Of a DNA stretch of 64,000 bases, positions 3,203-23,802 are shown in pieces. Source of the stretch: Streptomyces sp. NBC_00285 (GTDB lineage Bacteria; Actinomycetota; Actinomycetes; Streptomycetales; Streptomycetaceae); NCBI RefSeq assembly GCF_036174265.1, contig NZ_CP108055.1, forward strand, positions 3,348,001-3,412,000, written 5' to 3'. The position numbers and the translations under genes were made by a program. Under the pieces are notes generated by a model. That model was not told the DNA's origin, did no database searches, and was given only the letters and a program-made list of their open reading frames with translations. Numbering within the stretch: the first letter of the stretch is position 1; every line of letters starts with the position of its first letter.

Positions 3203-4753
3203 ATGGCGGGACCCGTCCTGGAAATGCGCTCGATCGTCAAGACCTTTCCCGGCGTCAAAGCGCTGTCGGACGTCACACTGACCGTCCGTCAGGGCGAGGT
3301 CCATGCCATCTGCGGTGAGAACGGCGCCGGAAAGTCCACCTTGATGAAGGTGCTCTCCGGCGTCCATCCGCACGGCACGTACGAGGGCGACATCCTCTTC
3401 GAGGGAGACATCGTCTCCTTCAAGGACATCCGAGCGAGCGAGCAGCACGGCATCGTGATCATCCATCAGGAACTGGCCCTGGTGCCGTTCCTGTCGATCG
3501 CGGAGAACATCTTCCTCGGCAACGAACACGCCTCGGGCGGGTTCATCAACTGGAACGAGACGCTCAAGCACGCCACCGAACTGCTGCGCCGGGTGGGTCT
3601 GTCCGACCACCCCGAGACCCGGATCACCGACATCGGTGTCGGAAAGCAGCAGCTGGTGGAGATCGCCAAGGCGCTCTCGAAGAAGGTGAAGCTCCTCATC
3701 CTGGACGAGCCGACCGCGGCTCTGAACGACGAGGACAGCGGCAAACTCCTGGATCTCATCCTGGAGTTGAAGAAGCAGGGCATCACCTCGATCATCATCT
3801 CCCACAAGCTCAACGAGATCCGCCGGGTCGCCGACTCGGTGACGATCATCCGCGACGGGAAGTCCATCGAGACCCTCGACGTGAAGGCCCCGGAGACCAC
3901 CGAGGACCGGATCATCACGGGCATGGTCGGCCGCGACCTCGACCACCGCTTCCCCGACCGCACTCCGTACGAGGGCGAGACGGACGCGGCCCCCGCCCTG
4001 GAGATCCGCAACTGGACGGTCCACCACCCGATCGACCAGACCCGCAAGGTGGTCGACGACGTGTCGATCGACGTGCGGCGTGGCGAGATCGTCGGCATCG
4101 CGGGCCTGATGGGCGCGGGGCGTACCGAACTCGCGATGAGCGTGTTCGGGCGCACCTACGGCCGGCACGCGGGCGGCACGGTCCTCAAGGACGGCAAGGA
4201 GATCCGTACGAAGACCGTCGCGGAGGCGGTCGGGCACGGCATCGCGTACGTCACCGAGGACCGCAAGCACTACGGCCTCAACCTCATCGACAACATCAAC
4301 CGCAACATCTCGCTGACCGCCCTGGACAAGGTGGCCAAGTACGGTGTGGTCGACGAGCACGAGGAGCGGAAGGTCGCCGAACGCTTCCGCAAGTCGATGA
4401 ACATCAAGGCGCCGACCGTGTTCGAGACGGTGGGCCGGCTGTCCGGCGGCAACCAGCAGAAGGTCGTCCTCAGCAAGTGGATCTTCGCCGGGCCGGACAT
4501 CCTGATCCTGGACGAGCCGACCCGCGGTATCGACGTGGGCGCCAAGTACGAGATCTACACGGTCATCGACCAACTGGCCGCCGAGGGCAAGGCGGTCGTC
4601 TTCATCTCCTCCGAGCTGCCGGAACTGCTCGGCATGTGCGACCGCATCTACACCATGTCCGCCGGGCGGCTGACGGGTGAGGTCTCGCGGGCCGAGGCCA
4701 CGCAGGAAGTGTTGATGCGCCAGATGACGAAGGACAAAGAGGTAACCCGATGA
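3203..4753 (+). CDS. Sugar ABC transporter ATP-binding protein with two ABC domains (MmsA/GguA/XylG type)
   Basis: 516 aa ATPase energising monosaccharide uptake. The first ABC domain has Walker [10 protein letters not shown] (about residue 35) and Walker [12 protein letters not shown]. The second has the degenerate Walker [11 protein letters not shown], signature LSGGNQQKV and Walker [13 protein letters not shown], which is the usual pattern of the CUT2 class. GAAAGG lies 8 nt before ATG 3203; an in-frame TTG at 3188 has no spacing for a ribosome site. The stop overlaps the permease start by 4 nt (ATGA), so the two are translationally coupled. Confidence 0.93.
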
Positions 4754-7140: not shown

Positions 7141-7315
7141 CCTGGTGAGATGACGGGCCCTACCCCGTGGTTCCCGAACTCACACTTCTTTCACACCCGT
7201 TGAACAGCGCCACGCGGATTTCCGTATGGAGAGGTGGCCCGTGCTCCCCCGCGCGGGCCACCCAATGACGACGGACCCGGTCGTCCCCGCCGGGTCCGCC
7301 CCATACGGAGGTTCG

Positions 7316-9128: not shown

Positions 9129-10103
9129 TCACAGCTCGTCGAGGAGGCTGGTCACCGAGCCGTTCTCGAAGATCTCCCGGATGGCGTGCGAGATCAGCGG
9201 TGCGACCGACAGGACCTCGACCTTGTCCAGGCCGGTCGCGCCGGCCGTGGGCAGGGTGTCGGTGAAGACGAACCGGCTGACCCGGGAGTTCTTCAACCGG
9301 TCCACCGCGGGCCCGGACAGGATGCCGTGCGTGGCCGCCACGATGACGTCCTCGGCGCCGTTCGCGTACAGCGCGTCCGCCGCCGCACAGATCGTGCCCG
9401 CCGTGTCGACCATGTCGTCCACCAGGACGCACACCCTCCCCGCGACCTCGCCGACCACCTCATGCACGCTGACCTGGTGGGCCACGTCCTTGTCCCTCTT
9501 CTTGTGGACGATGGCCAGCGGCGCGCCGAGCCGGTCGCACCACCGGTCGGCGACCCGGACCCGGCCGGCGTCCGGGGAGACCACCGTCAGCCGCTCCCGG
9601 TCGGTTCCCGCCGCGATGTGGTCGGCGAGGGTGGGCAGGGCGAAGAGATGGTCCATGGGGCCGTCGAAGAACCCCACGATCTGGTCGGTGTGCAGGTCGA
9701 TCGTGATGACCCGGTCGGCACCGGCGGCGCTCAGCAGGTCCGCGACCAGCCGGGCCGAGATGGGCTCCCGGCCCTTGTGCTTCTTGTCCTGCCGCGAGTA
9801 GCCGTAGAACGGCGCGACGACGGTGACGCTGCGGGCCGAGGCCCGTTTCAGCGCGTCGATCATGATGAGCTGTTCCATGATCCACGTGTTGATGGGCGCC
9901 GTGTGGGACTGCGTGACGAAGCAGTCCGCACCGCGGACCGACTCCTCGAAGCGGACGTAGATCTCCCCGTTGGCGAAGTCCCGTGCCTGGGTGGGCACCA
10001 GGCGGGTGCCGAGTTCCCGGGCGATGCGGGCGGCGAGGTCGGGGTGGGCCCGGCCGGAGAACAGGAGCATCTCCCGCCGGGCGCCACGGGTCACGGAGGT
10101 CAC
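9129..10103 (-). CDS. prs: Ribose-phosphate pyrophosphokinase (PRPP synthetase)
   Basis: 324 aa, the normal family length. It converts ribose 5-phosphate and ATP to PRPP in the cytoplasm. Signature segments are FANGEIYVRFEESVRG, RQDKKHKGREPISA (ATP loop), VITIDLHTDQIVGFFD (metal/R5P region) and the PRPP loop VLVDDMVDTAGT. The GTG start overlaps the stop of the upstream flavin reductase by 4 nt, so it is co-translated within the C-nucleoside-like cluster. It is unlikely to be the housekeeping copy, given its context. PRPP would feed the uracil phosphoribosyltransferase in the same block (inference). Confidence 0.92.
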   Translation of the reverse strand: MTSVTRGARREMLLFSGRAHPDLAARIARELGTRLVPTQARDFANGEIYVRFEESVRGADCFVTQSHTAPINTWIMEQLIMIDALKRASARSVTVVAPFYGYSRQDKKHKGREPISARLVADLLSAAGADRVITIDLHTDQIVGFFDGPMDHLFALPTLADHIAAGTDRERLTVVSPDAGRVRVADRWCDRLGAPLAIVHKKRDKDVAHQVSVHEVVGEVAGRVCVLVDDMVDTAGTICAAADALYANGAEDVIVAATHGILSGPAVDRLKNSRVSRFVFTDTLPTAGATGLDKVEVLSVAPLISHAIREIFENGSVTSLLDEL

Positions 10104-11170
10104 CGGCCGAGCACCGGGTAGTCGGTGTAGCCGCAGTGGTCGCCGCCGTAGAAGGCCGACTCGTCGGCCGCGTTGAACGGTCCGCCTGAGGCGATACGGG
10201 CCGACAGGTCGGGGTTGGCGAGGAAGAGGGCCCCGAGCGAGACCGCGTCGGCGAGACCCTCGTCAAGGATCTGCTGCGCGGTCTCGGCGGATGCCGGGAA
10301 GGAGTCCGCGGTGGCGTGCGGGTTGACCACCAGACCGCCCTGCCACAGGTCGCGCACGGCCCGGGTGACCGGGCGCGAGACGATCTCGCAGACCTCCAGG
10401 AACGCCAGCTCCGGCAGCGCCGGGACGAGGGCCGCGTAGAGCGCCTGGGTGTCGCCCTCGGCGATGTCGTTGTAGGTGTTGCCGGGCGAGACACGCACGC
10501 TGGTGCGCTCGTTGCCGATCGCGGCGGCGACGGCCTCGGTGACCTCGACGGTGAGCCGGATCCGGCCCGCGAGCGAACCGCCGTAGGAGTCGGTGCGGTG
10601 GTTGGTGTTCTCGGCGAGGAACTGGTGCAGAAGGAAGCCGTTGCCGGCGTGCACCTGGACGCCGTCGAATCCGGCCTCGACCGCGTTGCGGGCGGCGTCC
10701 GCGAAGTCCCTTACGGTGGCGGCGATCTCGTCGGCGGTCAGCTCGTGCGGGACCGGGTAGTCCTGCGGTCCGGCCGGGGTGAAGCACTGTCCGGCGGCGG
10801 CGATCGCGGACGGGGCGACCGGCTGGTGGGCGCTGTCGTACAGCGCGGGGTGCCCGATGCGGCCCGAGTGCATCAGCTGGACCACGATCCGCCCGCCCGC
10901 GGCGTGCACGGCATCCGTGACGGTGCGCCAGCTCTTGACCTGCTCGGGGTGGTGCAGGCCGGGCGTGTTGAGGAAGCCCTGGCCGACCTGGGAGGGCTGG
11001 GTGCCCTCGGTGATGATCAGGCCGGCGGAGGCACGCTGGGCGTAGTACTCGGCCATCAGCTCGGTGGCCCCGCCGCACGGCTTGGCCCGGTTGCGGGTCA
11101 TGGGGGCCATCACGAGCCGGTTGTCCAGGGTGATCTTGCCGAAGGTGACGGAGTCGAACAGCGAGGTCAT
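10100..11170 (-). CDS. Old-yellow-enzyme family alkene reductase (NemA-like)
   Basis: 356 aa FMN flavoprotein of the OYE family, which reduces activated C=C bonds or nitro groups with NAD(P)H. Visible motifs are LVMAPMTRNRA near the N-terminus, the GRIGHPALY loop, GFDGVQVHAGNGFLLHQFL (active-site barrel strand) and SYGGSLAGRIRL. AAGGAAG lies just before the ATG. It stands 20 nt after psuG and overlaps prs, so it is inside the operon. Its role in the pathway is unknown; it might reduce a pathway intermediate or a reactive quinone-like product. Confidence 0.9.
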   Translation of the reverse strand: MTSLFDSVTFGKITLDNRLVMAPMTRNRAKPCGGATELMAEYYAQRASAGLIITEGTQPSQVGQGFLNTPGLHHPEQVKSWRTVTDAVHAAGGRIVVQLMHSGRIGHPALYDSAHQPVAPSAIAAAGQCFTPAGPQDYPVPHELTADEIAATVRDFADAARNAVEAGFDGVQVHAGNGFLLHQFLAENTNHRTDSYGGSLAGRIRLTVEVTEAVAAAIGNERTSVRVSPGNTYNDIAEGDTQALYAALVPALPELAFLEVCEIVSRPVTRAVRDLWQGGLVVNPHATADSFPASAETAQQILDEGLADAVSLGALFLANPDLSARIASGGPFNAADESAFYGGDHCGYTDYPVLGR

Positions 11171-11190
11171 GATCTTCCTTTACGAGGGTG

Positions 11191-12123
11191 TCAGCCGCGG
11201 TCGGTCTGGTGGCGGGCGTAGGCGGCGGCCAGGCGGCCGCCGACCTCGGCGGTGGAGATGAGGACGGCCATGTTGGCCTGGGCGGTGCGGCCTCCGGTGG
11301 CCCGGTCGACCGCGTGCATCAGGTACTTGGTCAAGCCCTGGCCGCCCACGCCGTCCCGCTCTGCCTGCGCGAGCGCGTCCTGGATGGCGGCCTCGGCCTC
11401 GGCCCGGTCGACGGCGTCCTCGGCGCGCGGCGGGGTGGCGACGACCACGCCGCCGGGGTGGCCGGTGGCCCAGTGGGTGGCGACGACCTCGGCGATCAGG
11501 TCCTCGTCGTCGATGCGGTGCGGGGATCTGATGCCGCTGGAGGCGCAGTAGAAGGCCGGGAAGTCGTCGCAGCCGTGGGAGAGCACCGGGACGCACTGCG
11601 TCTCCAGGTACTCCATGGTGAGTTTCAGGTCGAGGATCATCTTGGCGCCGGCGCACACGACCGCGACCTTGGAGCGGGTGAGCTGGATCAGGTCCGAGGA
11701 GACGTCCATGGTGGTCTCGGCGCCACGGTGGACGCCGCCGAGACCCGCGGAGGAGAACCACTGGATGCCGGCCAGCTCGGCGGCGACGAGCGAGGAGGCG
11801 ACGGTGGTCGCGCCCAGGCCCCGGCGGGCCAGCACCACGGGCAGGTCGCGGCTGGAGACCTTGGGGATGCCGGTCCCGGACGCGAACCGCTCGATGTCCT
11901 GCTCGGTCATGCCGACCTTGAGGGCCCCGTCCTCGACGCAGATCGTCGCCGGGACGGAGCCGCCCTTGCGGACGGCGGCCTCGACCTCGTACGCCGTCTC
12001 GGCGTTGTGCGGGTAGGCCAGGCCGTGGGTGATGACGTTCGATTCCAGCGCGACGACGGGCCGCCGTTCGTGCAGGGCCTCGCGGACCTCTTCGCTGTAG
12101 TGGATCGGGATGCGGGTGCTCAT
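11191..12123 (-). CDS. psuG: Pseudouridine-5'-phosphate glycosidase (IndA/MinB type)
   Basis: 310 aa. PsuG enzymes reversibly make or break the C-glycosidic bond between ribose 5-phosphate and a uracil-like base. Homologues occur in indigoidine (indA) and minimycin (minB) clusters. Visible catalytic blocks are VVALESNVITHG (Glu27), KVSSRDLP (Lys) and CAGAKMILDL (the Lys that forms the ribose adduct in E. coli PsuG), plus GGVHRGAE. The chosen ATG is preceded by AAGGAA and overlaps the tautomerase stop (ATGA). An extension to 12222 is open but has no homology. Co-location with an indigoidine-type NRPS argues for C-nucleoside synthesis rather than pseudouridine catabolism. Confidence 0.92.
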   Translation of the reverse strand: MSTRIPIHYSEEVREALHERRPVVALESNVITHGLAYPHNAETAYEVEAAVRKGGSVPATICVEDGALKVGMTEQDIERFASGTGIPKVSSRDLPVVLARRGLGATTVASSLVAAELAGIQWFSSAGLGGVHRGAETTMDVSSDLIQLTRSKVAVVCAGAKMILDLKLTMEYLETQCVPVLSHGCDDFPAFYCASSGIRSPHRIDDEDLIAEVVATHWATGHPGGVVVATPPRAEDAVDRAEAEAAIQDALAQAERDGVGGQGLTKYLMHAVDRATGGRTAQANMAVLISTAEVGGRLAAAYARHQTDRG

Positions 12124-12374
12124 CGGGTTCCTTCGGCGGGGATCGGCTGGGAGTAGTTCGGCTGCTTCCACAGCAGGTGGGCCTTGGCGTCGATCTCGGG
12201 TGTGTGCACCCGTTCGATCCACCGGGACGGCTCGACGGGTTCCACGGCGATCGACACCGCGCCCTCCTCGACGCCGAACACCCGGGTGACGGTCTCGGTC
12301 AGTGCGGTGACCAGCTCGGCCCGCTCGGCCTCGGTGAAGGTGCGGGGAAAGTGGCTGATGCTGATGTGCGGCAC
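12120..12374 (-). CDS. Small tautomerase (4-oxalocrotonate tautomerase family, PptA-like)
   Basis: 84 aa. The product begins MPHISISHFPR, so removal of Met would expose the catalytic Pro1 of the tautomerase superfamily. The length and the downstream pattern (VSIAVEPVEPSRW) resemble E. coli PptA/YdcE. Such enzymes interconvert keto and enol forms. It lies between the NRPS gene and psuG and overlaps the latter by 4 nt. A role in setting the tautomer of a pyridine or oxazine intermediate is plausible but is inference. Confidence 0.8.
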   Translation of the reverse strand: MPHISISHFPRTFTEAERAELVTALTETVTRVFGVEEGAVSIAVEPVEPSRWIERVHTPEIDAKAHLLWKQPNYSQPIPAEGTR

Positions 12375-12437
12375 GGCCGCGTCCCTTTCGGTCGGGGACC
12401 TCGCCCCGCGGCGGGGGAACTCACGGGGCGAGGAGTC

Positions 12438-15400
12438 TCAGTGACGGTGTGTCAGATCCCGGATGCGGGCGATGAGTTCGTCCACTCCGTGCTTCTTCAG
12501 CACGGAGTAGTGGTCGCCGTCGAGGTCCACGAGCACCGGCGGTTCGGCCGAGTAGCCGGAGCTGGTCTCCAGGAAGGAGTAGTCGTCGCCGCGCGCCTTG
12601 AAGACCGTGACGGGCGCCTCGATGCGGCGCTCGCGCAGTTCGCGGAAGCTGTACTCGAACTCGTAGGTCTCGGCGACGATCCGGGTGATGCGGCGAATCG
12701 TTTCCTCACCGAGGGCCGGCAGCCGGTCGTGGACGAAGCCGACGAAGGAGTCCTCGTCGGTCACCTGCCGCAGACAGGCCCGTACGGCCGGGCCGTGGAC
12801 GGTGCCCGCGAAGACGGAGAACAGGATGGTGACGTAGGCCGGGTTGGCGAAGGACGCCTCGCGGCCCCACCGTCGTCCGCTCTCGTTCGCGAGCTCGGGA
12901 TTGCCCGGGCAGATCAGCAGCAGGCTGTCCACCTTCTCGCCGGACCGCTCCAGCTGCCAGGCCGCCTCGAAGGCCACGCGCGCGCCGAAGGAGTAGCCCC
13001 ACAGCGTGTACGGTCCGCACGGCTGGGCCCGGCGGATCTCCGCGACGTCGGCCGTCGCCATCTCCCGGATGGTGCCGTGCGGCACCTCGCCGGGGTTGAT
13101 CCCGTGGGCCTGGATCCCGGTCACGGGCCGGTCCAGGTCCACTCCCTGGGCCAGCAGTCGCAGGTTCATCGGGTAGCCGCCGAGGCCCGGCCAGCAGAAG
13201 ACCGGGCTGCCGGGGCCGCCGTGCAGCGGCACCAGCCGGGAGCCGGTGTCCGGGGCGCCGCGGTCGACACGGGCGGCGAGATCGGCCAGCTTCGGCGACT
13301 CGAAGATCACCTGGAGCGGCAGACCGGCGTCGAACTCCCGGTTGATCCGGTTGACCAGCGCCACGGCGTGCAGCGAGTTGCCGCCCGAGGCGAAGAACTC
13401 GTCCTGGACGGACACGTCCTCGTACTTCAGCATCCGGCCCCACTCGGCGGCCAGCCAGCGTTCCGTCGCCGTGGCGGGGGCGACGTACTCGGCGGCGCTG
13501 CGGATCGCGGCGACCTCCGGCAGCGCGGCCGTGGCCTTGGCGTCGATCTTCCCGTTGGCGGTCAGCGGCAGTTCGTTCACCACCACGACCCGGGCCGGGA
13601 TCATGTAGTCGGGCAGGAACCGCGCCATGTCGTCGCGGATCAGTTCCGCCGGACCCCGGGTGTGCACGGCGTCCTCGGCCATGCCTTCGTGCGCGGCCTG
13701 GCCGGTGCTGATCCGGCCGCCCACGAAGAAGTACGAGGCGGGCGCGGGAGGCGCTCCGGCGGCGGCGAGCAGGTCGTCCAGGCGGCGGGCGGCCGGCAGT
13801 GGGTTGCCCGACTTGGAGGAGTAGCCGGAGGACATCAGACCGATGCCCGCGGTGCGCTGGAGGCGGTGCAGCAGGGTGCCGAGGACGATGTAGTGCCGCC
13901 ACGGGTCGGTGGCCCGGGAGACGGCACTGATCCCGAAGGCGGAGCACTCGTACACGCTCTGGTTGATGGCGATGACGTGCCGCTTCTCCACGACCCCGGA
14001 GCCGACCGCCTCAAGCCGGCCGTCCCGGTGCCGGTAGAGGCCTTCCTGCAGTCCCGCCACCCGGTCGCCGTGGGCCTGGACCAACAGCTCGACCTCGTCC
14101 GGCTGCTCCCGGTCCTGGTGCGGGGTGATCTCGAAGGTGCCCAGGTACCGGTCGCCGTCGGCCGCGTCGAGCCGGTCGAAGACCGCCGGGTCGAAGCCCA
14201 CGGGGACGATGCCGAGGCCGAACTCGGGCAGGACCTCCTCGAAGACGCCGAGCATGTGGCCGGCCTCGAACTCCAGGACCTCCAGGATGTTGTTCTTGTA
14301 CACGGGCTCGATGGCCCGTGTCCGCCCGAGGAAGTGCACCCGCAGCACCGGACGGGACGTCTCATGGCCCGCGTCGCCGACGCGCACCAGCGTGTGGTCG
14401 GCGGGGTGGTGGTAGTAGACGCCGGACAGCCCGAACAGGCCGTCGATCTCCAGATACGTCTGGGTGGCGTACAGAGCGCCGGGCGAGGCGTAGGAGTACT
14501 TCGGCAGCAGCCGTTCGTCGCTGCGGAACGGGCCGAACCAGCGCAGGACACGGCCGAGTTCCGTCAGTGTGAGCTCGGTGAGCGCCCGGGGCACGCGGGG
14601 TGTACGACGGCGCGGGGAGAGCAGGTCGAGCACGTCGTCCGCGGTGACCGCGCCGCCGTCGTAGCGGCGGTAGGTCTTGCGGGCGAAGGCCTCGCGGCGC
14701 TGCGCCTCGGTGGCCTGCCGGCCCGGCAGTTCGAGCACCGGGCGCCCGGCCAGTTCGGCGGGACCGCGCAGTCCCGGGTTGGACAGCTGGGCCCTGACCT
14801 GGACCTTGGACGCCTTGGACCGGTGGTGGGCGGCGTCGTCGCGGCCCTGGTCCATCACCGCGGCGGTGCGCTCGTTCAACTCCACTGCCGCGACGAGGGA
14901 CTTGCCTCCGGTGCGGGGGTCGTCGGTGACGACGGCTGCCGCGCGCCGCACCCAGGTGTGCTCCTCGATCCGGGACGCCACCTCCTCCAACTCGACCCGG
15001 TAGCCGCGCAGTTTGACCTGGTTGTCGGTTCGGCCGGTGAACTGGATGGTGCCGTCCGGGTTCCACTGGCAGAGGTCGCCCGTACGGTACAGGCGTTCCG
15101 TCGGATTGAACGGCGAGGTGAGGAGCGTCCGGCGGTCGCCTCGGGCAGGCCGATGTAGCCGCGGGCGACCTGGACGCCGCCCACGAAGAGCTCACCGTTC
15201 TCGCCGATGTCGACCGGCTGCATGTTCTCGTCGAGGATGTAGCAGGTCACGTTGTCGGCGGGCACGCCGACCGGCAGGATCCCGGCCGGTGCGACGTCGA
15301 GGGCGTCGGGGTCGATCCAGTGCGAGGTGGCGTTGATCGTGGTCTCGGTCGGGCCGTAGAGGTTGACCAGGGAGACGCCCGGCAAAGCTGTGAACAGCTC

Positions 15401-16264
15401 CTGGGCCAGCGCGCGGGTGAGGGCCTCGCCGCCGGAGAAGAGCCGGGTCAGGGAGGTGCAGGCACCGAACTCCTCGGTGTCGACGAGGGCTTGGAGCAGG
15501 GTCGGCACGGCCTGGAGCGCGGTCACCCGGTGCGCGCAGACCATGGCGATGACGGCCTCGGGGTCCCGGAAGATTCCCGGGGTTCCCATCACCACCCGCG
15601 CTCCGACGGCGGGGGCGAGGATCTCCCACTGTGCCGCGTCGAAGCTCATCGGCGTCTTCTGGAGGATGGACACCTCGGGGCCGAGGTGTCCGCAGTTGGC
15701 CAGCCAGCGCAACTGGGAGACGATGCTGCGCTGTTCGATCATCACCCCCTTGGGCCGGCCGGTGCTGCCCGAGGTGTAGATGACGTAGGCGAGATGCTCG
15801 CCGCGCGGGGCCGGCAGAGGCGCCACCGTGTCCTCGGCAAGGTCGGTGAGGTCGACGACGACCGTGCCCTCAGGGGCCAACTGCCGGGCCTGCTCGCGCA
15901 GGTGGGGCTGGGTGACGATCACCTGGGCGCCGGAGTCCTCGACCATGTGTCTGAGCCGGGCCTCCGGGTAATCGGGCGAGAGCGGCAGATACGCGGCGCC
16001 GGCCGTCAGGATGCCCCAGGCCCCGGTCATGAGGTCCGCGGAGGACTCGGTGTAGAGGCCGACGCAGGTGTCGGGCAGGACGCCGAGTCCGACGAGCCGG
16101 GAACCCAGGCGGTCGGCCTGGGACTTGAGCTCGCGGAAGGTCAGGCTTGCGTCGGCGGTGGTTACGGCCGTGTCGTCGGGGCGCAGTCCCGCCTGGTGGG
16201 CGAGCAGGCCGCGCAGCGACGCGGGCTTGAAGGACACACCGGATATGGGTGCCTCGGTGTTCAT
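12438..16264 (-). pseudogene. indC: Indigoidine synthetase-type NRPS (A-Ox-PCP-TE), interrupted by a -1 frameshift
   Basis: Closely resembles BpsA/IndC/MinA, which cyclise and oxidise two L-Gln to indigoidine or supply a Gln-derived intermediate. Domain order in the corrected product (about 1275 aa; BpsA is about 1280): adenylation with YTSGSTGRPKG (residue 163) and NLYGPTETT; an FMN oxidase inserted within the A domain (FARKTYRRYDGGAVT to VGGRISTGQAAHEGM); A10 motif LTANGKID; PCP site GGNSLHAV; thioesterase GYSFGARVAFE with DGDHYS. The frame breaks after residue 378. One base appears missing in the GG/CC pair at about 15129-15130; adding it restores TLLTSPFNPTERLYRTGDL. Each half is otherwise intact, so this is a fresh indel or a sequencing error. 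Confidence 0.9.
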
Positions 16265-16298
16265 GTGGTGATTCCCCCGAATCGTTGATGAGAGTCGA

Positions 16299-17207
16299 TC
16301 AGACCCGGCTCGCCGCGCGTTCGGGCGGCGCCGGTGCGGGTCTGCGGTCCCGGCCCCGCGGCTGGGCGAGGACGACCGCGCCCACGACGGCGGCCGCGCC
16401 GAGGAGTTGGAGCGGGCGCAGGGTCTCGTCTAGGAAGAGGTAGCCGAGGACCGTCGCGCACAGCGGTGAGGCGAAGGACAGGAAGGAGGCGGCGAGGGCC
16501 GGCAGCCGGGACAGACCTCGGAACCACAGGACATAGGCGATGAGCGCGCCGATGACGCTGAGGTAGGCGAAGCCCCCGACGTTGGTCCAGGTGAGATGGT
16601 CCGGCAGACCCTCGCCGGCCAGGGTGACGGGCAGCAGGACGAGCCCGCCGACGGTGAGCTGCCAACCGGTGAACGTCAGCAGTCCGACGCCCTCGGGACG
16701 GCCCCACCTCTTGGTGAGCACGATGCCGGAGGCCATGGACAGGGCGCCGAGGAGCCCGGCCAGTACGCCGACGCCGTCGAGACCGGCGTGCGGCTGCAGT
16801 ACGAGCAGGGCGACTCCGACGGCGCCGACCAGGCAGGCCACCAGATGGACGGGCTGGATCCGGTCCTTCAGCAGCGCCGAGCCGAGCAGCAGCACGATCA
16901 TCGGCTGGATCGTCATGACCAGCGCGGCCACTCCCCCGGGCAGGTGGTAGGCGGCCAGGAACAGCAGATAGAAGAAGGCACCGATGTTCAGGACGCCCAG
17001 GACGACGGCCCGCCACCACCAGATGCCCCGGGGAAGCGTCCTGGTCATGAGCAGCAGGAGCAGTCCCGCGGGCAGGGCCCGCAGGGTGGAGGCCAGCAGC
17101 GGCCGGTCCGGCGGCAGGAACTCGGTGGTGATGAGGTACGTCGATCCCCAGACGGCCGGGGCGAGCGCGGTGAGGGCGGAGGTCGCGGCGAGGCGCTGAC
17201 TGGTCAC
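16299..17207 (-). CDS. EamA/DMT-family transporter (putative exporter of the cluster)
   Basis: 302 aa with ten hydrophobic segments in two EamA repeats. Landmarks are WGSTYLITTEF in helix 1, ALVMTIQPMIVLLLGSALL and the second-half LPALAASFLSFASPLCATVLGYLFLDE. The C-terminus is short, basic and cytoplasmic. Its GTG start overlaps the uracil phosphoribosyltransferase stop by 4 nt, and it ends 34 nt before the NRPS start. In this context it most likely exports the product (self-resistance), as a transporter does in the published minimycin cluster. The substrate is inferred only. Confidence 0.85.
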   Translation of the reverse strand: MTSQRLAATSALTALAPAVWGSTYLITTEFLPPDRPLLASTLRALPAGLLLLLMTRTLPRGIWWWRAVVLGVLNIGAFFYLLFLAAYHLPGGVAALVMTIQPMIVLLLGSALLKDRIQPVHLVACLVGAVGVALLVLQPHAGLDGVGVLAGLLGALSMASGIVLTKRWGRPEGVGLLTFTGWQLTVGGLVLLPVTLAGEGLPDHLTWTNVGGFAYLSVIGALIAYVLWFRGLSRLPALAASFLSFASPLCATVLGYLFLDETLRPLQLLGAAAVVGAVVLAQPRGRDRRPAPAPPERAASRV

Positions 17208-17869
17208 TCGGTGGCTCCGGAGTCGGTCGTCCCGAAGAAACGGTCGCCGAAGTCGCCGATGCCCGGGATCATGAACGCGTGCTCGTTGAGCCGGTCCTCG
17301 ATCGCGCTGGTGACGATCTTGACCTGTGGACGCTCGGTGCCCACCCGGCGCAGCCCCTCGGGAGAGGACAGGAAGTTGATCATGATGATGTGCTTCTCGG
17401 GCACCCCGGCCTCGCGCAGCACGTCGATCGCGGCGATCGCGGAGCCGCCGGTGGCGAGCATCGGCTCCAGCAGCAGTACGTGGCCGTCGGCGATGTCCGC
17501 GGGCAGGTGCTGGTAGTACAGGTGCGGCAGCTTGGTCCGCTTGTCGCGCTGGATGAGGATCTTGCCGACGCGGATGCCGGGGTGGAGATAGCGCAGCTCG
17601 CCCTCCATGGCCTCGCCCGCCCGGATGACCGGCACCGCGCAGATCTTCGAGGCGAACTCGAGTCCCTGGTAGGTGGTGCCGACCGGGGTGGTGACGTCCT
17701 TCTTGGTGAACGGCAGGAGGTCGAGGCCGGCTTCGAGCAGGTGCCGGATGACGCGGCGCGAGTGGAAGACGAAGTCCTCGCGGGTGCAGTCCTTGTCCCG
17801 GATGATCGTGTGGATGGCACGGAGTTGGTCGGTCTGCGGAAGCAGATGGACGTTGTGGCCCGTGGTCAC
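17204..17869 (-). CDS. upp: Uracil phosphoribosyltransferase, eukaryote-like type (MinD-like)
   Basis: 221 aa. Makes UMP from uracil and PRPP. It belongs to the subgroup seen in fungi and plants, recognisable by IHTIIRDKDCTREDFVFHS and RRVIRHLLEAGLDLLPF, rather than the shorter housekeeping bacterial form. Further motifs are VPVIRAGEAMEGELR, KILIQRDKRTKLP, the PRPP loop EPMLATGGSA (Glu replaces the usual first Asp) and IPGIGDFGDRFFGT. It overlaps the exporter gene. In the minimycin system a UPRT (MinD) protects the producer by enlarging the UMP pool; the same role is likely here. Confidence 0.93.
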   Translation of the reverse strand: MTTGHNVHLLPQTDQLRAIHTIIRDKDCTREDFVFHSRRVIRHLLEAGLDLLPFTKKDVTTPVGTTYQGLEFASKICAVPVIRAGEAMEGELRYLHPGIRVGKILIQRDKRTKLPHLYYQHLPADIADGHVLLLEPMLATGGSAIAAIDVLREAGVPEKHIIMINFLSSPEGLRRVGTERPQVKIVTSAIEDRLNEHAFMIPGIGDFGDRFFGTTDSGATE

Positions 17870-17929
17870 GGCATGGGCTCCTTCGGGTCCGTTGGGTTCG
17901 ACTCGCTCGACGAGGGCACGGCGAAGGGA

Positions 17930-17964
17930 GGGGCGTCCGGGCCGGATCGCGGTCCGGACGCCCC
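17930..17964 (-). terminator. Hairpin between the TrpF-like gene and upp
   Basis: Perfect 11-bp inverted repeat (17930-17940 with 17954-17964), 13-nt loop, just after the TrpF-like stop on the minus strand. It may end or attenuate transcription before upp, making upp-exporter-NRPS a separate unit. Confidence 0.65.
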
Positions 17965-17980
17965 TGCTTCGGTGCTGCGT

Positions 17981-18664
17981 TCAGCCGATCTCGTCGAAAG
18001 CGCGGCGGGCCTCGGCGACGAACTTCGCGACCTTGGCGCGGTCCTTGCGCCCGTCGGGGCCCTCCAGGCCGGTGTGCGCGTCGACGGCGGCGGGCCGGAC
18101 CGCACGGATGGCGTCGCCCACGTTCTCCGGGTTCAGACCGCCGGCCATCATCAGCGGCTTGGGTGAACGCCGGACGAGCTCGGCGGAGACGTTCCAGTCG
18201 TGGGTGAGGCCGGTGGCGCCCTTGGCGCCGGTCCTCGGGTCGAAGGTGTCGGTGATGTACATGTCGACGAAGGCGTGGGTGTCGTCGACGAGCTTCAGCA
18301 GCTCCTCGGCGTTGTCCTGCTTGACGACGAGGGACTTGAGCACGAAGAGGTCCGGCCGGATCTCCTTGAGGCGGCGCAGCTGCCCGGTCTCCACGTCACC
18401 GTGCAACTGCACGGCGACGACGCCGAGTTCGTGACAGAAGTCGCTGATCTCCTGGGCGTCGGTGAGATAGCTGATGAGGACGCCGGCGTGCGGGGCGGCG
18501 AGGCCCTTGATGATCACCGCGGCATCCTGCTCGGGAATGTCGTCCTTGCCGGACGGCAGACGCAGCGCGAAGCCGAGCCAGTCGGCACCCTGAGCGATGA
18601 TCATGTCCGCCTCGACGGCGTCGATGACGCCTGCGACCTGGACGAGCTTGTTGACTGTGGTCAC
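17981..18664 (-). CDS. Phosphoribosylanthranilate isomerase-like (TrpF-fold) protein lacking the usual catalytic Cys
   Basis: 227 aa (beta/alpha)8 protein. TrpF-like features are GADWLGFALRLPSG, VVAVQLHGD, and the phosphate-binding end LMMAGGLNPENVGDAI with AAVDAHTGLEG. The first strand reads VQVAGVIDAVEAD where TrpF has KICGI, so the general-base Cys is Ala. An Asp is present in YITDTFDP near the position of the catalytic Asp. Tryptophan biosynthesis is therefore doubtful; an isomerase or lyase acting on a ribose-phosphate compound of the cluster is a guess. GTG 18664 has GGGGGG at good spacing; a TTG at 18673 does not. Confidence 0.75.
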   Translation of the reverse strand: MTTVNKLVQVAGVIDAVEADMIIAQGADWLGFALRLPSGKDDIPEQDAAVIIKGLAAPHAGVLISYLTDAQEISDFCHELGVVAVQLHGDVETGQLRRLKEIRPDLFVLKSLVVKQDNAEELLKLVDDTHAFVDMYITDTFDPRTGAKGATGLTHDWNVSAELVRRSPKPLMMAGGLNPENVGDAIRAVRPAAVDAHTGLEGPDGRKDRAKVAKFVAEARRAFDEIG

Positions 18665-18718
18665 GAAGACCAACCCCCCTGTTGGTGCGCGGTGTTCGCG
18701 CTTGGTTGTGATGTGGTG

Positions 18719-19375
18719 TCAGCGGCCGTACGTCTCGCTGAAGCAGGTCAGCACACGGTCCCGTCGTCCTGGGTGAAGCCGGCTCTCGGCCGGGTGGCCC
18801 AGCGGCATGAGCAGGGCGATGTGCAGGTCGTCGCGGCCGTCGATGCCGATGGCCTTCTTGACCTGCCCCTCGTCCCAGCCGTTCATCGGACTGGTGGCCA
18901 AACCCGCGGCCTCAGCGGCGATCATGAGGAAGGACGCGGCGATCATGGCGTCCTTGACCGCGTACTCCCGCTCCAGGCCCCGGCCCGCGAGGTCCTCGTA
19001 GAAGTGGCGGGTGTCGGCGGGCGAAGCGGCGGCGAATCGCTCGGACCACGCCCCGCGCTGCGTCGCGGTGTCCCACACGTCGCCCCGGTCCTCGCGCCAG
19101 GCGGCGGACTCGGCGACGAACACGAGCATCACCGGCGCTTCCTGCGGATGCGGCTGGCCACCGGTGGCCGCGGTGAGCGCCCGGCGCCCCTCCTCCGAGG
19201 TGACGGTCACGACCGAACGGGCCTGCAGATTGAAGCTCGACGGCGCTTCCAGGGCCAGCTCCACCAGCTCCGTGAGCAGCGCGGCCGGTACCGGATCGGG
19301 CCGGTAATGGCGAATACTGCGGCGGGAACGGATGACCCGGGAAACGGTGGCGTGATCGACGCTCGATGCGTTCAC
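18719..19375 (-). CDS. Nitroreductase-family FMN oxidoreductase
   Basis: 218 aa. The N-terminal VIRSRRSIRHYRPDPVP is the FMN phosphate-binding signature of nitroreductases. APSSFNLQARSVVTV and the C-terminal HIALLMPLGHPAESR complete the fold. It would reduce a nitro, quinone or enone substrate with NAD(P)H. It is the first gene of the minus-strand block and is divergent from a MarR regulator, with promoter and palindromic sites between them. It may be the regulated redox enzyme for a pathway intermediate or a detoxification enzyme; the substrate is unknown. Confidence 0.88.
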   Translation of the reverse strand: MNASSVDHATVSRVIRSRRSIRHYRPDPVPAALLTELVELALEAPSSFNLQARSVVTVTSEEGRRALTAATGGQPHPQEAPVMLVFVAESAAWREDRGDVWDTATQRGAWSERFAAASPADTRHFYEDLAGRGLEREYAVKDAMIAASFLMIAAEAAGLATSPMNGWDEGQVKKAIGIDGRDDLHIALLMPLGHPAESRLHPGRRDRVLTCFSETYGR

Positions 19376-19393
19376 GACCTTACCCCCTGACTT

Positions 19394-19450
19394 TTCGACG
19401 TCGAACTATCTGACGTCGAGAAGCTATGCCATGAACTACACTTGCGTCAA
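19394..19450 (-). promoter_or_regulatory. Divergent promoter region with candidate MarR operators
   Basis: For the minus strand, -35 TTGACG (19445-19450) and -10 TAGCTT (19421-19426) are 18 nt apart. A 12-bp perfect palindrome TTCGACGTCGAA (19394-19405) and a related TGACGTCGA (19411-19419) cover the start site and early leader of the nitroreductase transcript. The neighbouring MarR protein is the obvious candidate to bind them. Confidence 0.5.
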
Positions 19451-19491
19451 ACACTTCGCTGTCAAACTAAACCTGAACGGGAGGTGACCTC

Positions 19492-19980
19492 ATGCGTGAC
19501 TCCGTCGACGAGTTCATGGACCAGTGGGCCGCCCAGCGCACCGACCTCGACCTCGACGCCATGGGCACGGTCGGCCGCATCCTGCGGCTGTCACGACTGG
19601 TGAACGCCCGACTCAAGGACTATTTCACGCAGTACGACATGGAGACGTGGGAGTTCGACGTCCTCGCCACCCTGCGCCGCAGCGGGCAGCCGCTCACAGC
19701 CAAGGCACTGGCCGGCAGCATCATGATCGGCTCGGCCGCGCTCACCAACCGCATCGACCGGCTGGTCGCCCGCGGCCTGGTCACCCGCGAGTCCGTGCCC
19801 GGCGACCGGCGCAGCCTGCACATCGCCCTCACCGCCGAGGGACGCGACCTGGTCGACCGCACCGTGGAGGGACATGTCCAGAACCAGCTGAAGATCCTCG
19901 CGGGCCTGACTCCGGACGACCGCGAGGACCTCACCCGCGTCCTGCGCACCCTGCTGGTCTCGCTCGGCGACACCCGCTGA
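19492..19980 (+). CDS. MarR-family transcriptional regulator
   Basis: 162 aa winged-helix repressor. The DNA-binding part includes PLTAKALAGSIMIGSAALTNRIDRLVARGLVTRE, followed by the wing PGDRRSLHIALTAEGRDL. The protein is alpha-helical at both ends for dimerisation. ATG 19492 has GGGAGGTGA 5 nt upstream. It is divergent from the nitroreductase gene and probably controls it, and perhaps the whole C-nucleoside-like block, through the palindromes in the shared region. MarR proteins usually respond to phenolic or redox-active ligands; the ligand is unknown. Confidence 0.9.
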   Translation: MRDSVDEFMDQWAAQRTDLDLDAMGTVGRILRLSRLVNARLKDYFTQYDMETWEFDVLATLRRSGQPLTAKALAGSIMIGSAALTNRIDRLVARGLVTRESVPGDRRSLHIALTAEGRDLVDRTVEGHVQNQLKILAGLTPDDREDLTRVLRTLLVSLGDTR

Positions 19981-21187: not shown

Positions 21188-21718
21188 TCAGCCGACCTGC
21201 TCGAAGACCATCGACCACCAGCTGTCCGGCTGTGCGAACGCGTACGGGTCGCGGGCCCTGAGGTACTCCACGAGTGTGTCCGTGTACGGCGCGCGGTCCT
21301 GCGGTGCGGCCTGTTCCAGGTGCTTGGTGCGCAGTGCGAAGCGGTACAGGAACTCGACGAGGTCGGCGAGGGTGCGGTTCACGATCTCGGCGCGCGGTTC
21401 CGCGTCGAAGGACATGAGGATGACGTAGCCGCGGTCCATGTCGAGGCAGTACCGCATCGCCGGGTCGTCGGTGGGGCCGCCGAGGACGAGGATGTGGGTC
21501 TCGTCGCCGCCGGCGGCGACCGGCACCACGGTGAAGGGATCGGGCCCGTCGTCGGCGGTGTCGAGGGTGAACAGCACGTCGACGAAGGCGGGCACACCGA
21601 CGTCGCACAGCACCTCGGCGTCGGCCTCGGACAGTCCGCGCTCCTCGGCGACGGCACGGTCCAGCGTGACCACGCGGTCCGCGCCGAACAGTTCCGTCAT
21701 CTCGTCATGGGTGGCCAT
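21188..21718 (-). CDS. SUKH-4-like immunity protein
   Basis: 176 aa cytoplasmic alpha/beta protein with no signal peptide. The segments VLCDVGVPAFVDVLF, HILVLGG and GYVILMSF, followed by an acidic helical end (ADLVEFLYRF), resemble SUKH-4 immunity proteins, which neutralise polymorphic toxins. It lies 32 nt downstream of a second SUKH-like gene and the HNH-type toxin in the same direction, so a protective role is inferred from both fold and context. It may guard against a different toxin from the neighbouring one. Confidence 0.65.
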   Translation of the reverse strand: MATHDEMTELFGADRVVTLDRAVAEERGLSEADAEVLCDVGVPAFVDVLFTLDTADDGPDPFTVVPVAAGGDETHILVLGGPTDDPAMRYCLDMDRGYVILMSFDAEPRAEIVNRTLADLVEFLYRFALRTKHLEQAAPQDRAPYTDTLVEYLRARDPYAFAQPDSWWSMVFEQVG

Positions 21719-21750
21719 GCGTCCTCTTCTTCCCCTCGTCCTCTGTGTGT

Positions 21751-22305
21751 TCAGCCGGCGAGGCCGGCCCGGCGCAGCAGCTTCAGCCAGTCGTCGTACT
21801 CCACCAGTTCGTCGTCGACCAGCGCGAGCCGTGCGTACGCGGCGGGGTCGGCCAGCCGCTCCAGGAAGAAGTCGGCCAGACCGGGCGCGAGCTGCTCGAA
21901 GCGCTCCGCGTCGACCCAGTCGGCGCCCTGGTCCGGGGTCCCGAGGACACTGCCGCCCGCGCGGTCGAGGAACACGGGAGCGTCGTTGGTCATCCCGACA
22001 CAGAACAGCTTCTCCGGGGACAGCTCCAGCGGGGAGTCGACGACCGGCTCGCAGTAGAACTGGTGCTCCTCGGCCTCCTCCAGGCCGAAGAGCTGCACGG
22101 ACGGTCCGCAGCTCGCGCCGTCCAGCACCCGGCAGAAGTCCAGGAACTCCCGCGGCACCCCGTCGGCATCCGCGGCGGCGGACGTCTCCTCGTCGATCGT
22201 CCCGCCGAGCGTGAACCCGAGCACGTCCGGGCTCTCCGCCAGCGCCGTCCGCAGGGCGTCCACGGTTGCGATCAGGCGGGACGACGCCGGGCTCGCGCTA
22301 GTCAT
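21751..22305 (-). CDS. SUKH (SMI1/KNR4-like) immunity protein
   Basis: 184 aa, acidic, soluble. The segment GVPREFLDFCRVLDGASCGPSVQLFG matches the start of the SMI1/KNR4 fold (a helix entering a strand with the xPxxYxxFxxxxxG-like pattern). It ends with a helical DWLKLLRRAG. ATG 22305 overlaps the last 8 nt of the toxin gene, the tight coupling expected for a cognate toxin/immunity pair. Its probable job is to bind and inhibit the HNH-like nuclease encoded just upstream. Confidence 0.7.
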   Translation of the reverse strand: MTSASPASSRLIATVDALRTALAESPDVLGFTLGGTIDEETSAAADADGVPREFLDFCRVLDGASCGPSVQLFGLEEAEEHQFYCEPVVDSPLELSPEKLFCVGMTNDAPVFLDRAGGSVLGTPDQGADWVDAERFEQLAPGLADFFLERLADPAAYARLALVDDELVEYDDWLKLLRRAGLAG

Positions 22306-23107
22306 CTGGCCACCACTTGATGTCGATGTTGATCGGATTGCCGTCCGGAAGATCCTTGATCTGCGGGCGTATCTGCTGTGTGCCGATGTCGTAGTTCGTC
22401 GTCCGGTCGAGCATCCGCAGGTTACGCCACGCGTCCGGACCACCGGTCTGGAGCTCGTTGACGTGGTCGGGCTGCATTTTACGGGCGGCCTGCGCGGCCT
22501 CCTCGGCGAACTCGGGGTCGTCCTTGTGGTTCCTGCGGATGAGCGCTTCCAGGGCGCCCTTGTACTTCGCGGTGATCTCCTTGTCGCGGTAGTCCTCGGT
22601 CCTGCCCTTGAACTTGAAGAGGTTCCCCTCCTCGCCGAGCCGCTGCAGGGCCCGCGCCTTCCGTTCGAAGGCCGGCTTGGGCATGCCGGGCTTCCACTCC
22701 ACGGTGACGGTGTGCGGGTCCTTGGTGGTGTCCGGACGGTCCTTGCCGATCCCGCCGCCGTCGCGCACCGTGTCCTGGTCGCCGGAGCGCTTCACGATGC
22801 TCTGCAGCATCGTCTCGATGTTCTTGTCGTTGCGCGCATGGTTGTCGCCCATGTCCCGCACGCCCTTGGACACGTCCTGGAGGTGCTTGTGGAGCTGGTC
22901 CTCGGCCTCCTCGATGGCCTTGAGGATCTTCTCGGCCCCGGTCTCGACGGCCGCCGCGAGGGCGCCCTTGCCGCGCGTCCGGTTCAGCCCGGCCCGGCTG
23001 CGGCGCAGGTGGGGGCGGGCGCTGGACTCGTGCTCGTCGGCCTGGGAGGTGATCCGGTCGGCGAGCCGTTCGTGCAGCTCTTGGTCGCTGCGTACGGTGT
23101 CGCTCAC
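22298..23107 (-). CDS. Polymorphic toxin with C-terminal HNH-like nuclease domain
   Basis: 269 aa, with no signal peptide. Residues 1-110 form a long charged coiled coil (IEEAEDQLHKHLQDVSKG). Residues 135-269 look like a toxin domain ending in an HNH/treble-clef-type core: QPDHVNELQTGG (Asp214-His215), WRNLRMLD (Asn229) and TTNYDIG (Asn238). It overlaps the WXG100-like protein gene upstream (GTGA) and the immunity gene downstream (8 nt). Together they look like a type VII-secretion-associated toxin split into carrier, toxin and immunity. DNase activity is predicted from the fold only. Confidence 0.7.
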   Translation of the reverse strand: MSDTVRSDQELHERLADRITSQADEHESSARPHLRRSRAGLNRTRGKGALAAAVETGAEKILKAIEEAEDQLHKHLQDVSKGVRDMGDNHARNDKNIETMLQSIVKRSGDQDTVRDGGGIGKDRPDTTKDPHTVTVEWKPGMPKPAFERKARALQRLGEEGNLFKFKGRTEDYRDKEITAKYKGALEALIRRNHKDDPEFAEEAAQAARKMQPDHVNELQTGGPDAWRNLRMLDRTTNYDIGTQQIRPQIKDLPDGNPINIDIKWWPDD

Positions 23108-23802
23108 GCGGCGCCTCCCCCCTTCGCGGTGAAGGTCCCCGTGGTCCCCGTGGCAGCGTCCAGCCCCTCCTTGAGGCCCTCGCTGCCCGCGTTCAGGGTC
23201 TTGCCGGGGCTGTAACCGTCCTGCAGTCCCACGGCGTTGGCGCCGACCTGGATGACGAGGTCGGTGGCCATGTTGCCGAGCGCGGAGTAGACGGGGCCCA
23301 TGGCGACGGACATGAGCTCCTCGACCAGGAGGTGCTCGGCCTCCTTCAGCAGCCGCCGCACGATCAGGCGGGTGGCCTGGGTGGCGCCGAGCGCGCCGAC
23401 CTCGGACAGCCCGAGCGTGAAGGGCGCGGCAGCCTGGGCGGCGATGATCTCGGCGGCCAGGATGCCCAGTTGGACGACGGCGGCGACCTTGGCACCGGCC
23501 ACGGCGACGGCGGCGCCGTCCAGGGCCACCGCCCCGATGTCGGCCGCTTCACCGAGGCGTTCCAGGTGTACGTCGCTGACCTTGCCCCAGTGTTGCTGGA
23601 AGGCGGCGGTCGCGATGCCCTCGTTGCCTTCGAGGAACTCGCGGACGACACTCGTCGTCGCGTCCTTGCCCTGCCGCATCTGCGAGGCGAACGAACGCAG
23701 TCCGTCGGCCATGTCGCGGTAGTCGTCCTCGTCGACATTGGGCCACTCGACTCCGATGAGGTCCAGCACCCAGGCCGCCTCGTCGGGCAGCACGACTCCC
23801 AT
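23104..23802 (-). CDS. WXG100/CpnT-N-like carrier protein of the toxin module
   Basis: 232 aa, ATG start. The N-terminal VLPDEAAWVLDLIGVEWPNVDEDDYRDMADGLRSFA matches the helical WXG100-like N-terminal domain found in CpnT-type and other actinobacterial toxins. A hydrophobic Ala/Val-rich middle (AAVAVAGAKVAAVVQLG, residues 95-150) could insert in membranes. The C-terminus is Gly-rich and disordered. In many relatives this domain is fused to the toxin; here it is separate and coupled to the toxin gene by a GTGA overlap. Export by a type VII-like pathway is inferred. Confidence 0.7.
   Translation of the reverse strand: MGVVLPDEAAWVLDLIGVEWPNVDEDDYRDMADGLRSFASQMRQGKDATTSVVREFLEGNEGIATAAFQQHWGKVSDVHLERLGEAADIGAVALDGAAVAVAGAKVAAVVQLGILAAEIIAAQAAAPFTLGLSEVGALGATQATRLIVRRLLKEAEHLLVEELMSVAMGPVYSALGNMATDLVIQVGANAVGLQDGYSPGKTLNAGSEGLKEGLDAATGTTGTFTAKGGGAA

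Follow-up and report, generated by a model that had tools for sequence, protein, structure and literature searches.

Streptomyces sp. NBC_00285 encodes, within the 64,000-nucleotide stretch analyzed here (contig NZ_CP108055.1, positions 3,348,001 to 3,412,000; hereafter the window), a chromosomal operon that combines an indigoidine-type (IndC/BpsA-like) nonribosomal peptide synthetase (NRPS), a PsuG/IndA-type C-ribosyl synthase, and a protein with the fold of phosphoribosylanthranilate isomerase (PRAI, or TrpF) in which the catalytic Cys is lost. We consider it fairly likely that this operon represents an uncharacterized branch of IndC-PsuG clusters, here termed TrpF-type, and that it makes, instead of minimycin, some other C-nucleoside or C-nucleotide derivative. 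The IndC-PsuG clusters examined split into two types, one with a HAD phosphatase and one with the TrpF-like protein, and these are mutually exclusive at a locus.

HAD and TrpF-like genes at IndC-PsuG loci

Relatives of the window were collected by scanning a genome collection with aligned NRPS oxidase parts, and the best 80 of 121 were used; together with plasmid loci, loci found first through their TrpF-like gene, and the window, these made up 108 loci, which were tabulated with purpose-built profiles. Dropped before counting were L075 (the same plasmid as L014), L112 (a contig end), and the second copies L135, L136, L137, L142, L143, and L145. NRPS, PsuG, and TrpF-like genes occur together without HAD or PF14027 genes in 43 of the 108 loci, and an NRPS occurs without PsuG, TrpF-like, HAD, or PF14027 genes in 41 (seven of these stretches end at contig ends and are shorter than 19 kb). 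The remaining combinations are NRPS with PsuG, HAD, and PF14027 (eight loci), NRPS with PsuG and HAD (four), NRPS with PsuG and neither type of marker (four), TrpF-like with PsuG and no NRPS (four), PsuG with HAD and no IndC-type NRPS (two), one decayed TrpF-type locus, and one NRPS with PF14027 alone.

Across the 65 PsuG-bearing loci, 11 of which lie on stretches under 19 kb, a TrpF-like gene is present in 47, a HAD gene in 14, neither in 4, and both in none (the Fisher value of 5e-11 is descriptive, with loci treated as independent); the HAD profile was built on cluster HADs, and distant phosphatases in TrpF-type loci could escape it. The window, with TrpF-like, PsuG, and uracil phosphoribosyltransferase (UPRT) genes and no HAD or PF14027 gene at the locus, is one of the 47. 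Three of the four genomes with neither marker have a TrpF-like gene outside the fetched stretch, either about 0.5 kb past its end by coordinates (L100, 74%) or on another contig (L034, 88%; L095, 72%); in the fourth, L015, the gene is absent from the plasmid. Conversely, a TrpF-like gene was sought across the whole genome (11) or plasmid (1) for 12 of the 14 HAD-type loci, with one strong match (S. microflavus, where it belongs to the separate TrpF-type locus L146), weak matches in six (E 3e-13 to 9e-7, 29–43% identity), and no match in five.

The accessory genes differ between the types as well. UPRT occurs in 47/47 TrpF-type and 12/14 HAD-type loci, while the corresponding values are 33/47 and 4/14 for the EamA transporter, 26/47 and 1/14 for phosphoribosyl pyrophosphate synthetase (PRPPS), 24/47 and 0/14 for old-yellow enzyme (OYE), and 14/47 and 0/14 for nitroreductase. 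The midpoint-rooted NRPS tree (59 rows) places three HAD-type loci, L031, L032, and L040, in a set of 14 (support 100) that includes the window, and L031 and L032 share a fork of support 99 with the TrpF-type loci L030 and L033; all three lack the TrpF-like, OYE, and nitroreductase genes together. Parsimony requires at least four changes of type on the NRPS tree and at least five on that of PsuG, where showdomycin-like rows are counted in, although both trees are quick builds with many weak forks and with very long branches leading to L017, L018, and L019. Given these switches and the confinement of OYE and nitroreductase to TrpF-type loci, it looks as if a common NRPS-PsuG start can be continued in either of two ways, by the HAD gene or by the TrpF-like gene, the latter often accompanied by OYE and nitroreductase.

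The marker of the second type was examined in an alignment of 168 rows, comprising 48 cluster proteins and the best 120 of 848 database matches (E 1e-30 or better). At the position of the canonical catalytic Cys, 168/168 rows (148 of them distinct) have Ala, and the putative acid, D142, is kept in all. The canonical SKRY arginine is replaced, with Asp (141), Glu (21), Asn (4), or His (2) at position 44 and Asp in all rows at position 45, so that Arg occurs at neither. In canonical PRAI, Cys7 (Thermotoga maritima numbering) acts as the base and an Asp as the acid. Dozens of residues in the TrpF-like proteins are near-invariant and many of these differ from canonical TrpF; the GGL..NV residues of the C-terminal half are retained, and the motifs QVAG and RLPSGKDD are signatures of the family's own, which provide a one-gene marker for finding TrpF-type clusters. 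The predicted model (mean pLDDT 91) is closest in fold to the PRAI 1dl3, with TM-scores against 1dl3_B of 0.90 (target length) and 0.77 (query length) at 29% identity. The protein thus shares the (beta/alpha)8 fold and the acid Asp with canonical PRAI (1dl3, 1lbm), but has neither its base Cys nor its SKRY Arg. From fold and residues together we infer that it would still bind a phosphoribosyl compound and that the normal Amadori step would be impossible for it. An assignment as a plain TrpF for tryptophan synthesis was dropped, as the Cys is lost and another PRAI in this genome carries the canonical motif.

Among the best 120 of 848 matches, the closest named proteins are from S. canus (95–97%), and Pseudoalteromonas proteins occur at about 70%. 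Matches to the TrpF-like query were found in 9/295 genomes of the genus, 15/394 of the family, and 5/394 of the class (own genome included); these sets overlap, and with one class match (34%) being a canonical TrpF, 24 different genomes result. PsuG is in the fetched stretch of 23 of these 24, the exception being a contig end, and the NRPS in 19. Chance pairing of the TrpF-like gene with PsuG was considered and dropped in view of the type counts, the NRPS tree, and the correlated distances among TrpF-like, PsuG, UPRT, and NRPS proteins (r 0.77–0.91 over 42 loci).

The original prediction proposed the grouping of PsuG and UPRT with housekeeping enzymes as the observation that would speak against a cluster, and the cluster reading survived this comparison. 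The genome, 10.3 Mb in two contigs, holds a second PF04227 gene and a second UPRT (two further UPRT matches are weak and under the family cut-off). In a PsuG tree of 94 rows, a single branch (SH-aLRT 99) separates 64 cluster proteins from 30 others, the latter being the second copy in this genome plus the best copies of relatives (30 of 40 PF04227 matches), taken as housekeeping with their neighbors unchecked. The window UPRT is 43–86% identical to 60 cluster UPRTs (median 66%) vs. 39% (155 columns) to the other UPRT of the genome, which itself is 29–42% identical to the cluster proteins. Equivalents of Glu31 and Lys166 of YeiN, described as residues of an iminium mechanism (PMC7722734), are kept in the window PsuG (alignment to 4gij, with an offset of 23 counted by hand). 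Sequence comparison thus assigns PsuG and UPRT to cluster lineages distinct from the genome's other copies, and these lineages, with the correlated distances given above, support a co-inherited cluster of the C-nucleoside type.

Comparison with minimycin and other known clusters

The original prediction described the gene content as the set expected for minimycin, which is not borne out. We compared the window with the minA-B-C-D-T cluster of S. hygroscopicus JCM 4712 as outlined in a review, the relevant sections of which count MinC among five essential genes, describe it as a HAD phosphatase joined to PF14027 (DUF4243), and relate a proposed self-resistance role for the phosphatase domain (PMC8724604). 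An IndC-type NRPS, a PsuG-type synthase, a UPRT, and a transporter are common to both clusters, but the window lacks MinC and has in addition a separate tautomerase, the TrpF-like protein, OYE, PRPPS, and nitroreductase. The counterpart of MinB is a PF04227 protein of the cluster clade with both catalytic residues, that of MinD is a UPRT of the cluster lineage, and an EamA gene could stand for MinT, for which the review sections name no family. A candidate counterpart of MinA is the NRPS, with adenylation and oxidase-thiolation-thioesterase domains in two frames and a substrate pocket like that of the relatives.

Both halves of MinC, whose absence had gone unremarked in the original prediction, are missing from the cluster. 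A cluster-HAD profile found no HAD domain in positions 4001–26000 of the window, nor did Pfam in the ten cluster proteins, the rest of the genome being unsearched. No PF14027 domain occurs within the cluster either, and the only match in the genome lies 2.6 Mb away (34 bits, over the family cut-off, with one third of the profile covered); this 361-aa frame resembles the MinC-type C-terminal half of L013 weakly (E 2.6e-9). The minimycin label thus fits in part: MinA-, MinB-, MinD-, and transporter-like genes are present but MinC is missing from the cluster, and the product is probably not minimycin. The PRPPS, OYE, tautomerase, TrpF-like, and nitroreductase genes that had been regarded as extras are present, by Pfam and NF family matches. 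They were not added at random: among the loci examined, the type marked by the TrpF-like gene never carries a HAD gene. As a separate observation, minimycin-like clusters with NRPS, PsuG, HAD, PF14027-type, and UPRT genes occur outside the actinobacteria in Photorhabdus asymbiotica and P. khanii (L103, L105).

The window NRPS differs from the one-frame modules of IndC and BpsA. Its adenylation and oxidase-thiolation-thioesterase pieces lie in separate frames, and the adenylation frame departs from the family near 15.1 kb, which agrees with the frame break implied by the original prediction. A single-frame NRPS (at least 1150 aa) is found in 42/43 TrpF-type loci, the window being the sole exception, and in 99/101 NRPS loci overall, where the second exception is the HAD-type L031. 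The thiolation motif GGNS and the thioesterase motif GYSFG are visible in the window sequence, and the oxidase piece of 446 residues is 57% identical to the NRPS of the S. lavendulae plasmid pSA3239; Pfam gave no nitroreductase match for the oxidase part. The nine pocket letters of the adenylation piece read DAWQLSLIN, and pockets of the form DAWQ...N occur in 38/43 TrpF-type, 12/12 HAD-type, 4/4 other PsuG, and 41/42 PsuG-less loci, the remainder not being readable with the search pattern used. Because this pattern is common to all locus types, the amino acid activated is probably the same in each, which by analogy with characterized enzymes would be glutamine.

Two TrpF-type relatives have appeared in the literature under other descriptions. 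The plasmid pSA3239 of S. lavendulae CCM 3239 (L014) carries TrpF-like, UPRT, EamA, tautomerase, PsuG, OYE, PRPPS, and NRPS genes and no HAD; it differs from the window in that the NRPS stands at the end of the set, a SARP regulator adjoins in place of MarR, nitroreductase is unmatched, and the set lies on a plasmid inside the type II polyketide synthase (auricin, aur1) cluster. In the portion of PMC10409956 consulted, this set is called blue-pigment indigoidine genes. Reduced sets occur on linear plasmids amid polyketide genes: Streptomyces W1SF4 (L021) retains EamA, tautomerase, and NRPS, and NBC_00158 (L015) is without TrpF-like and OYE genes.

The 29-kb plasmid pET44827 of Corynebacterium aurimucosum (L019) has a divergent MarR gene, TrpF-like (52%), UPRT, NRPS, tautomerase, PsuG, and EamA genes, and no HAD, but OYE, PRPPS, and nitroreductase are unmatched, a NAD(P)H-binding protein stands in their place, and the pigment is black. 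As described in the sections of PMC2830990 at hand, this pigment is credited to the NRPS; a PRAI homolog, a phosphoribosyltransferase, an IndA-like protein, and a PecS-like regulator are listed at the locus, the PRAI and phosphoribosyltransferase are suggested to activate the NRPS, and those sections mention no nucleoside. The plasmid pAvCG78a of Agrobacterium vitis (L017) has TrpF-like, UPRT, EamA, NRPS, tautomerase, PsuG, and OYE genes in the order of the window, but differs in a LysR gene downstream and in the unmatched MarR, PRPPS, and nitroreductase. A further A. vitis plasmid, that of strain CG957 (L027), holds a decayed TrpF-type locus with the NRPS in pieces, in which a full PsuG was not found.

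Showdomycin is a maleimide, and a showdomycin reading was raised by the best score of the OYE, which is to N-ethylmaleimide reductase and falls under that family's cut-off; it was dropped in view of the indigoidine-kind NRPS and the lack of a HAD. As outlined in the review, the showdomycin cluster shares a PsuG-type synthase with the window (the PsuG-HAD loci L016 and L018 are taken as its relatives), but has a dissociated NRPS (SdmC/SdmD) and the HAD SdmB, whereas the window has a multi-domain NRPS and no HAD.

A description of the TrpF-type set was not found in the titles and abstract openings of the open literature, subscription papers being outside this coverage, and PMC2830990 alone combines "phosphoribosylanthranilate isomerase" with "indigoidine" there. 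The accessible portions of PMC8910723 and PMC5834325 add nothing on the genes of the set; in the part seen of PMC13144596, indigoidine production serves as a read-out.

Proposed pathway and alternative readings

Each enzymatic step proposed here, as well as the product, is derived from protein families. The NRPS would load L-glutamine and, by oxidation and cyclization, form an aminopyridinedione, which if left alone would dimerize to indigoidine. The tautomerase may supply the correct tautomer to PsuG, and this enzyme would form the C-C bond between the base and ribose 5-phosphate, giving a C-nucleotide. The minimycin route would continue from this point through ring oxidation and dephosphorylation by MinC, a branch missing from the window cluster. 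Here, the TrpF-like protein, with its phosphoribosyl-binding fold and acid Asp, most likely acts on the 5'-phosphorylated C-nucleotide, and its reaction would be a ring opening or closing instead of a full Amadori shift. OYE and nitroreductase would adjust the redox state of the base, UPRT and PRPPS may protect the cell through raised uridine monophosphate as proposed for MinD, EamA would export the product, and MarR would regulate the operon.

More tentatively, and with doubts that outweigh our confidence, the Cys-less PRAI may have been recruited as a new isomerase acting on PsuG C-nucleotides made from the indigoidine monomer. It would then define a non-minimycin branch found in actinobacteria and alphaproteobacteria and, probably, in marine gammaproteobacteria, with the black C. 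aurimucosum pigment and the "indigoidine" attributed to the aur1 plasmid as spill-over. The split into two types makes the real products of the black-pigment plasmid and of the auricin-adjacent indigoidine genes testable, and raises the possibility of a new enzyme activity on C-nucleotides.

Several observations weigh against the proposed TrpF-type branch and its pathway. What the TrpF-like protein does is guessed from its fold and residues, and a binding or protective role fits equally. The genome does encode a PF14027 protein away from the cluster, and S. microflavus has both a HAD-type (L032) and a TrpF-type (L146) locus at separate places. OYE, PRPPS, nitroreductase, and EamA are not universal in the TrpF-type branch. 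Four Kitasatospora-type genomes (L138–L141) have the order TrpF-UPRT-EamA-PsuG-OYE (three of them also with PRPPS) and a PsuG that joins that of the window at a fork of support 84, with no adjacent IndC-type NRPS; such an NRPS lies elsewhere in three of these genomes and is found nowhere in one, and as a result another base is possible in these clusters. For the strain itself, the favored pathway is a prediction from genes alone. The break in its NRPS may be a sequencing error or real decay, which are indistinguishable here, and with the frame broken in this genome, synthesis of the base may fail in this strain.

The last point leads to the reading in which the cluster is decaying and without product in this strain, which we judge somewhat unlikely. 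The window NRPS is the sole broken one among the 43 TrpF-type loci, and decayed relatives are known, among them those of A. vitis CG957 and Streptomyces W1SF4; but the reading frames of the remaining genes are open, their products are 76–93% identical to those of S. bikiniensis L028, and a single break could be a sequencing error. An unlikely, although still credible, alternative retains the pathway up to the C-nucleotide and treats the TrpF-like protein as a binding or self-protection protein for this toxic compound instead of a pathway enzyme, HAD-type strains achieving protection by dephosphorylation. The universal loss of the Cys alongside the retained Asp and GGL..NV residues is in keeping with this, as are the mutual substitution of HAD and TrpF-like genes and the self-resistance proposed for the MinC phosphatase domain in the review sections cited above (PMC8724604). 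Conversely, dozens of near-invariant and often non-canonical residues exceed the apparent need of binding, and the joint loss of the TrpF-like gene with OYE and nitroreductase in L031, L032, and L040 points to a tailoring branch.

The two remaining readings would each assign a known product. That this is a pigment cluster for indigoidine, with PsuG, UPRT, and the others merely auxiliary, is improbable. It draws on the published accounts of pSA3239 (PMC10409956) and C. aurimucosum (PMC2830990) which, in the parts consulted, treat the sister genes as indigoidine and black-pigment genes, respectively; however, the 41 NRPS loci without PsuG, TrpF-like, HAD, or PF14027 genes in the fetched stretch suggest that pigment is independent of these, PsuG, UPRT, and TrpF-like proteins are co-inherited with the NRPS, and the C. 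aurimucosum pigment is not blue. Very improbable, in our judgment, is a minimycin cluster in which the work of MinC is done by a general phosphatase and an unlinked oxidase encoded elsewhere. The counterparts of MinA, MinB, MinD, and the transporter, adenylation pockets of one kind at MinC-type and TrpF-type loci, and the distant PF14027 protein are all compatible with it, but that protein is matched over a third of the profile and is weakly MinC-like, and the TrpF-type set recurs in many genera with HAD at 0/47 loci.

Operon layout and flanking genes

As originally predicted, the named genes lie together on one strand, with Pfam matches over cut-off (Table 1). The order of transcription is nitroreductase, TrpF-like, UPRT, EamA, NRPS, tautomerase, PsuG, OYE, and PRPPS (9129–19375, minus strand), and the divergent MarR gene extends the block to 19980. 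Spacing is tight, with 4-base overlaps at three junctions (PRPPS/OYE, tautomerase/PsuG, and EamA/UPRT). The tautomerase call rests on Pfam, the frame choice based on GC content having picked a plus-strand frame there and so lending no support.

Table 1. Genes of the TrpF-type operon and its divergent regulator, in window coordinates.
Feature	Coordinates	Strand	Family match and remarks
MarR-family regulator	19492-19980	+	PF12802/PF01047; divergent from operon
Nitroreductase-family flavoprotein	18719-19375	-	PF00881; first gene of operon
TrpF-like protein, PRAI fold, catalytic Cys lost	17981-18673	-	PF00697; branch marker
Uracil phosphoribosyltransferase (UPRT), MinD-like	17204-17869	-	PF14681; cluster lineage
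EamA/DMT exporter (putative)	16299-17207	-	PF00892
NRPS adenylation-domain piece	14876-16264	-	PF00501; pocket DAWQLSLIN
NRPS oxidase-thiolation-thioesterase piece	12438-14990	-	PF00550, PF00975; different frame from adenylation piece
Stand-alone 4-oxalocrotonate-type tautomerase	12120-12374	-	PF01361; 84 aa, Pro next after start Met
PsuG/IndA-type C-ribosyl synthase	11191-12123	-	PF04227 (Indigoidine_A)
Old-yellow enzyme (OYE), N-ethylmaleimide-reductase-like	10100-11170	-	PF00724; NF007899 299 bits, under cut-off 403
PRPP synthetase (PRPPS)	9129-10103	-	NF002844 539 bits vs. cut-off 438; last gene of operon

Thirteen relatives carrying the block (stretches of 17–21 kb) were compared for its borders. 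MarR is matched in 11/13, at 45–80% identity, and PRPPS in 9/13, while the flanking sugar ABC permease, aldose epimerase, aminotransferase, GH43, and SUKH-4 genes have matches in 0/13, the stretches of L108 and L109 stopping at the PRPPS/OYE side before the flank beyond. This recurrence of MarR and PRPPS, with no match for the five flanking genes, indicates that the block is more than a chance association. The gap between MarR and nitroreductase, 116 bases long in the window, was aligned for nine loci, a tenth (L033) being omitted for overlapping predicted reading frames; parts of it look conserved, but the best palindromes vary among loci, and we therefore claim no operator. A search with positions 18600–19500 found no near match in phages.

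Two features of the flanks are recorded as minor observations. The aminotransferase at 7226–9058 matches PF00155 over residues 98–392 and continues in a repetitive, Met/Pro/Ala-rich C-terminal tail of about 200 residues. On the other side, a SUKH-4 immunity-like protein, two Pfam-less frames, and a WXG100-like protein follow one another at 21188–23802, an arrangement that resembles a polymorphic toxin-immunity locus.

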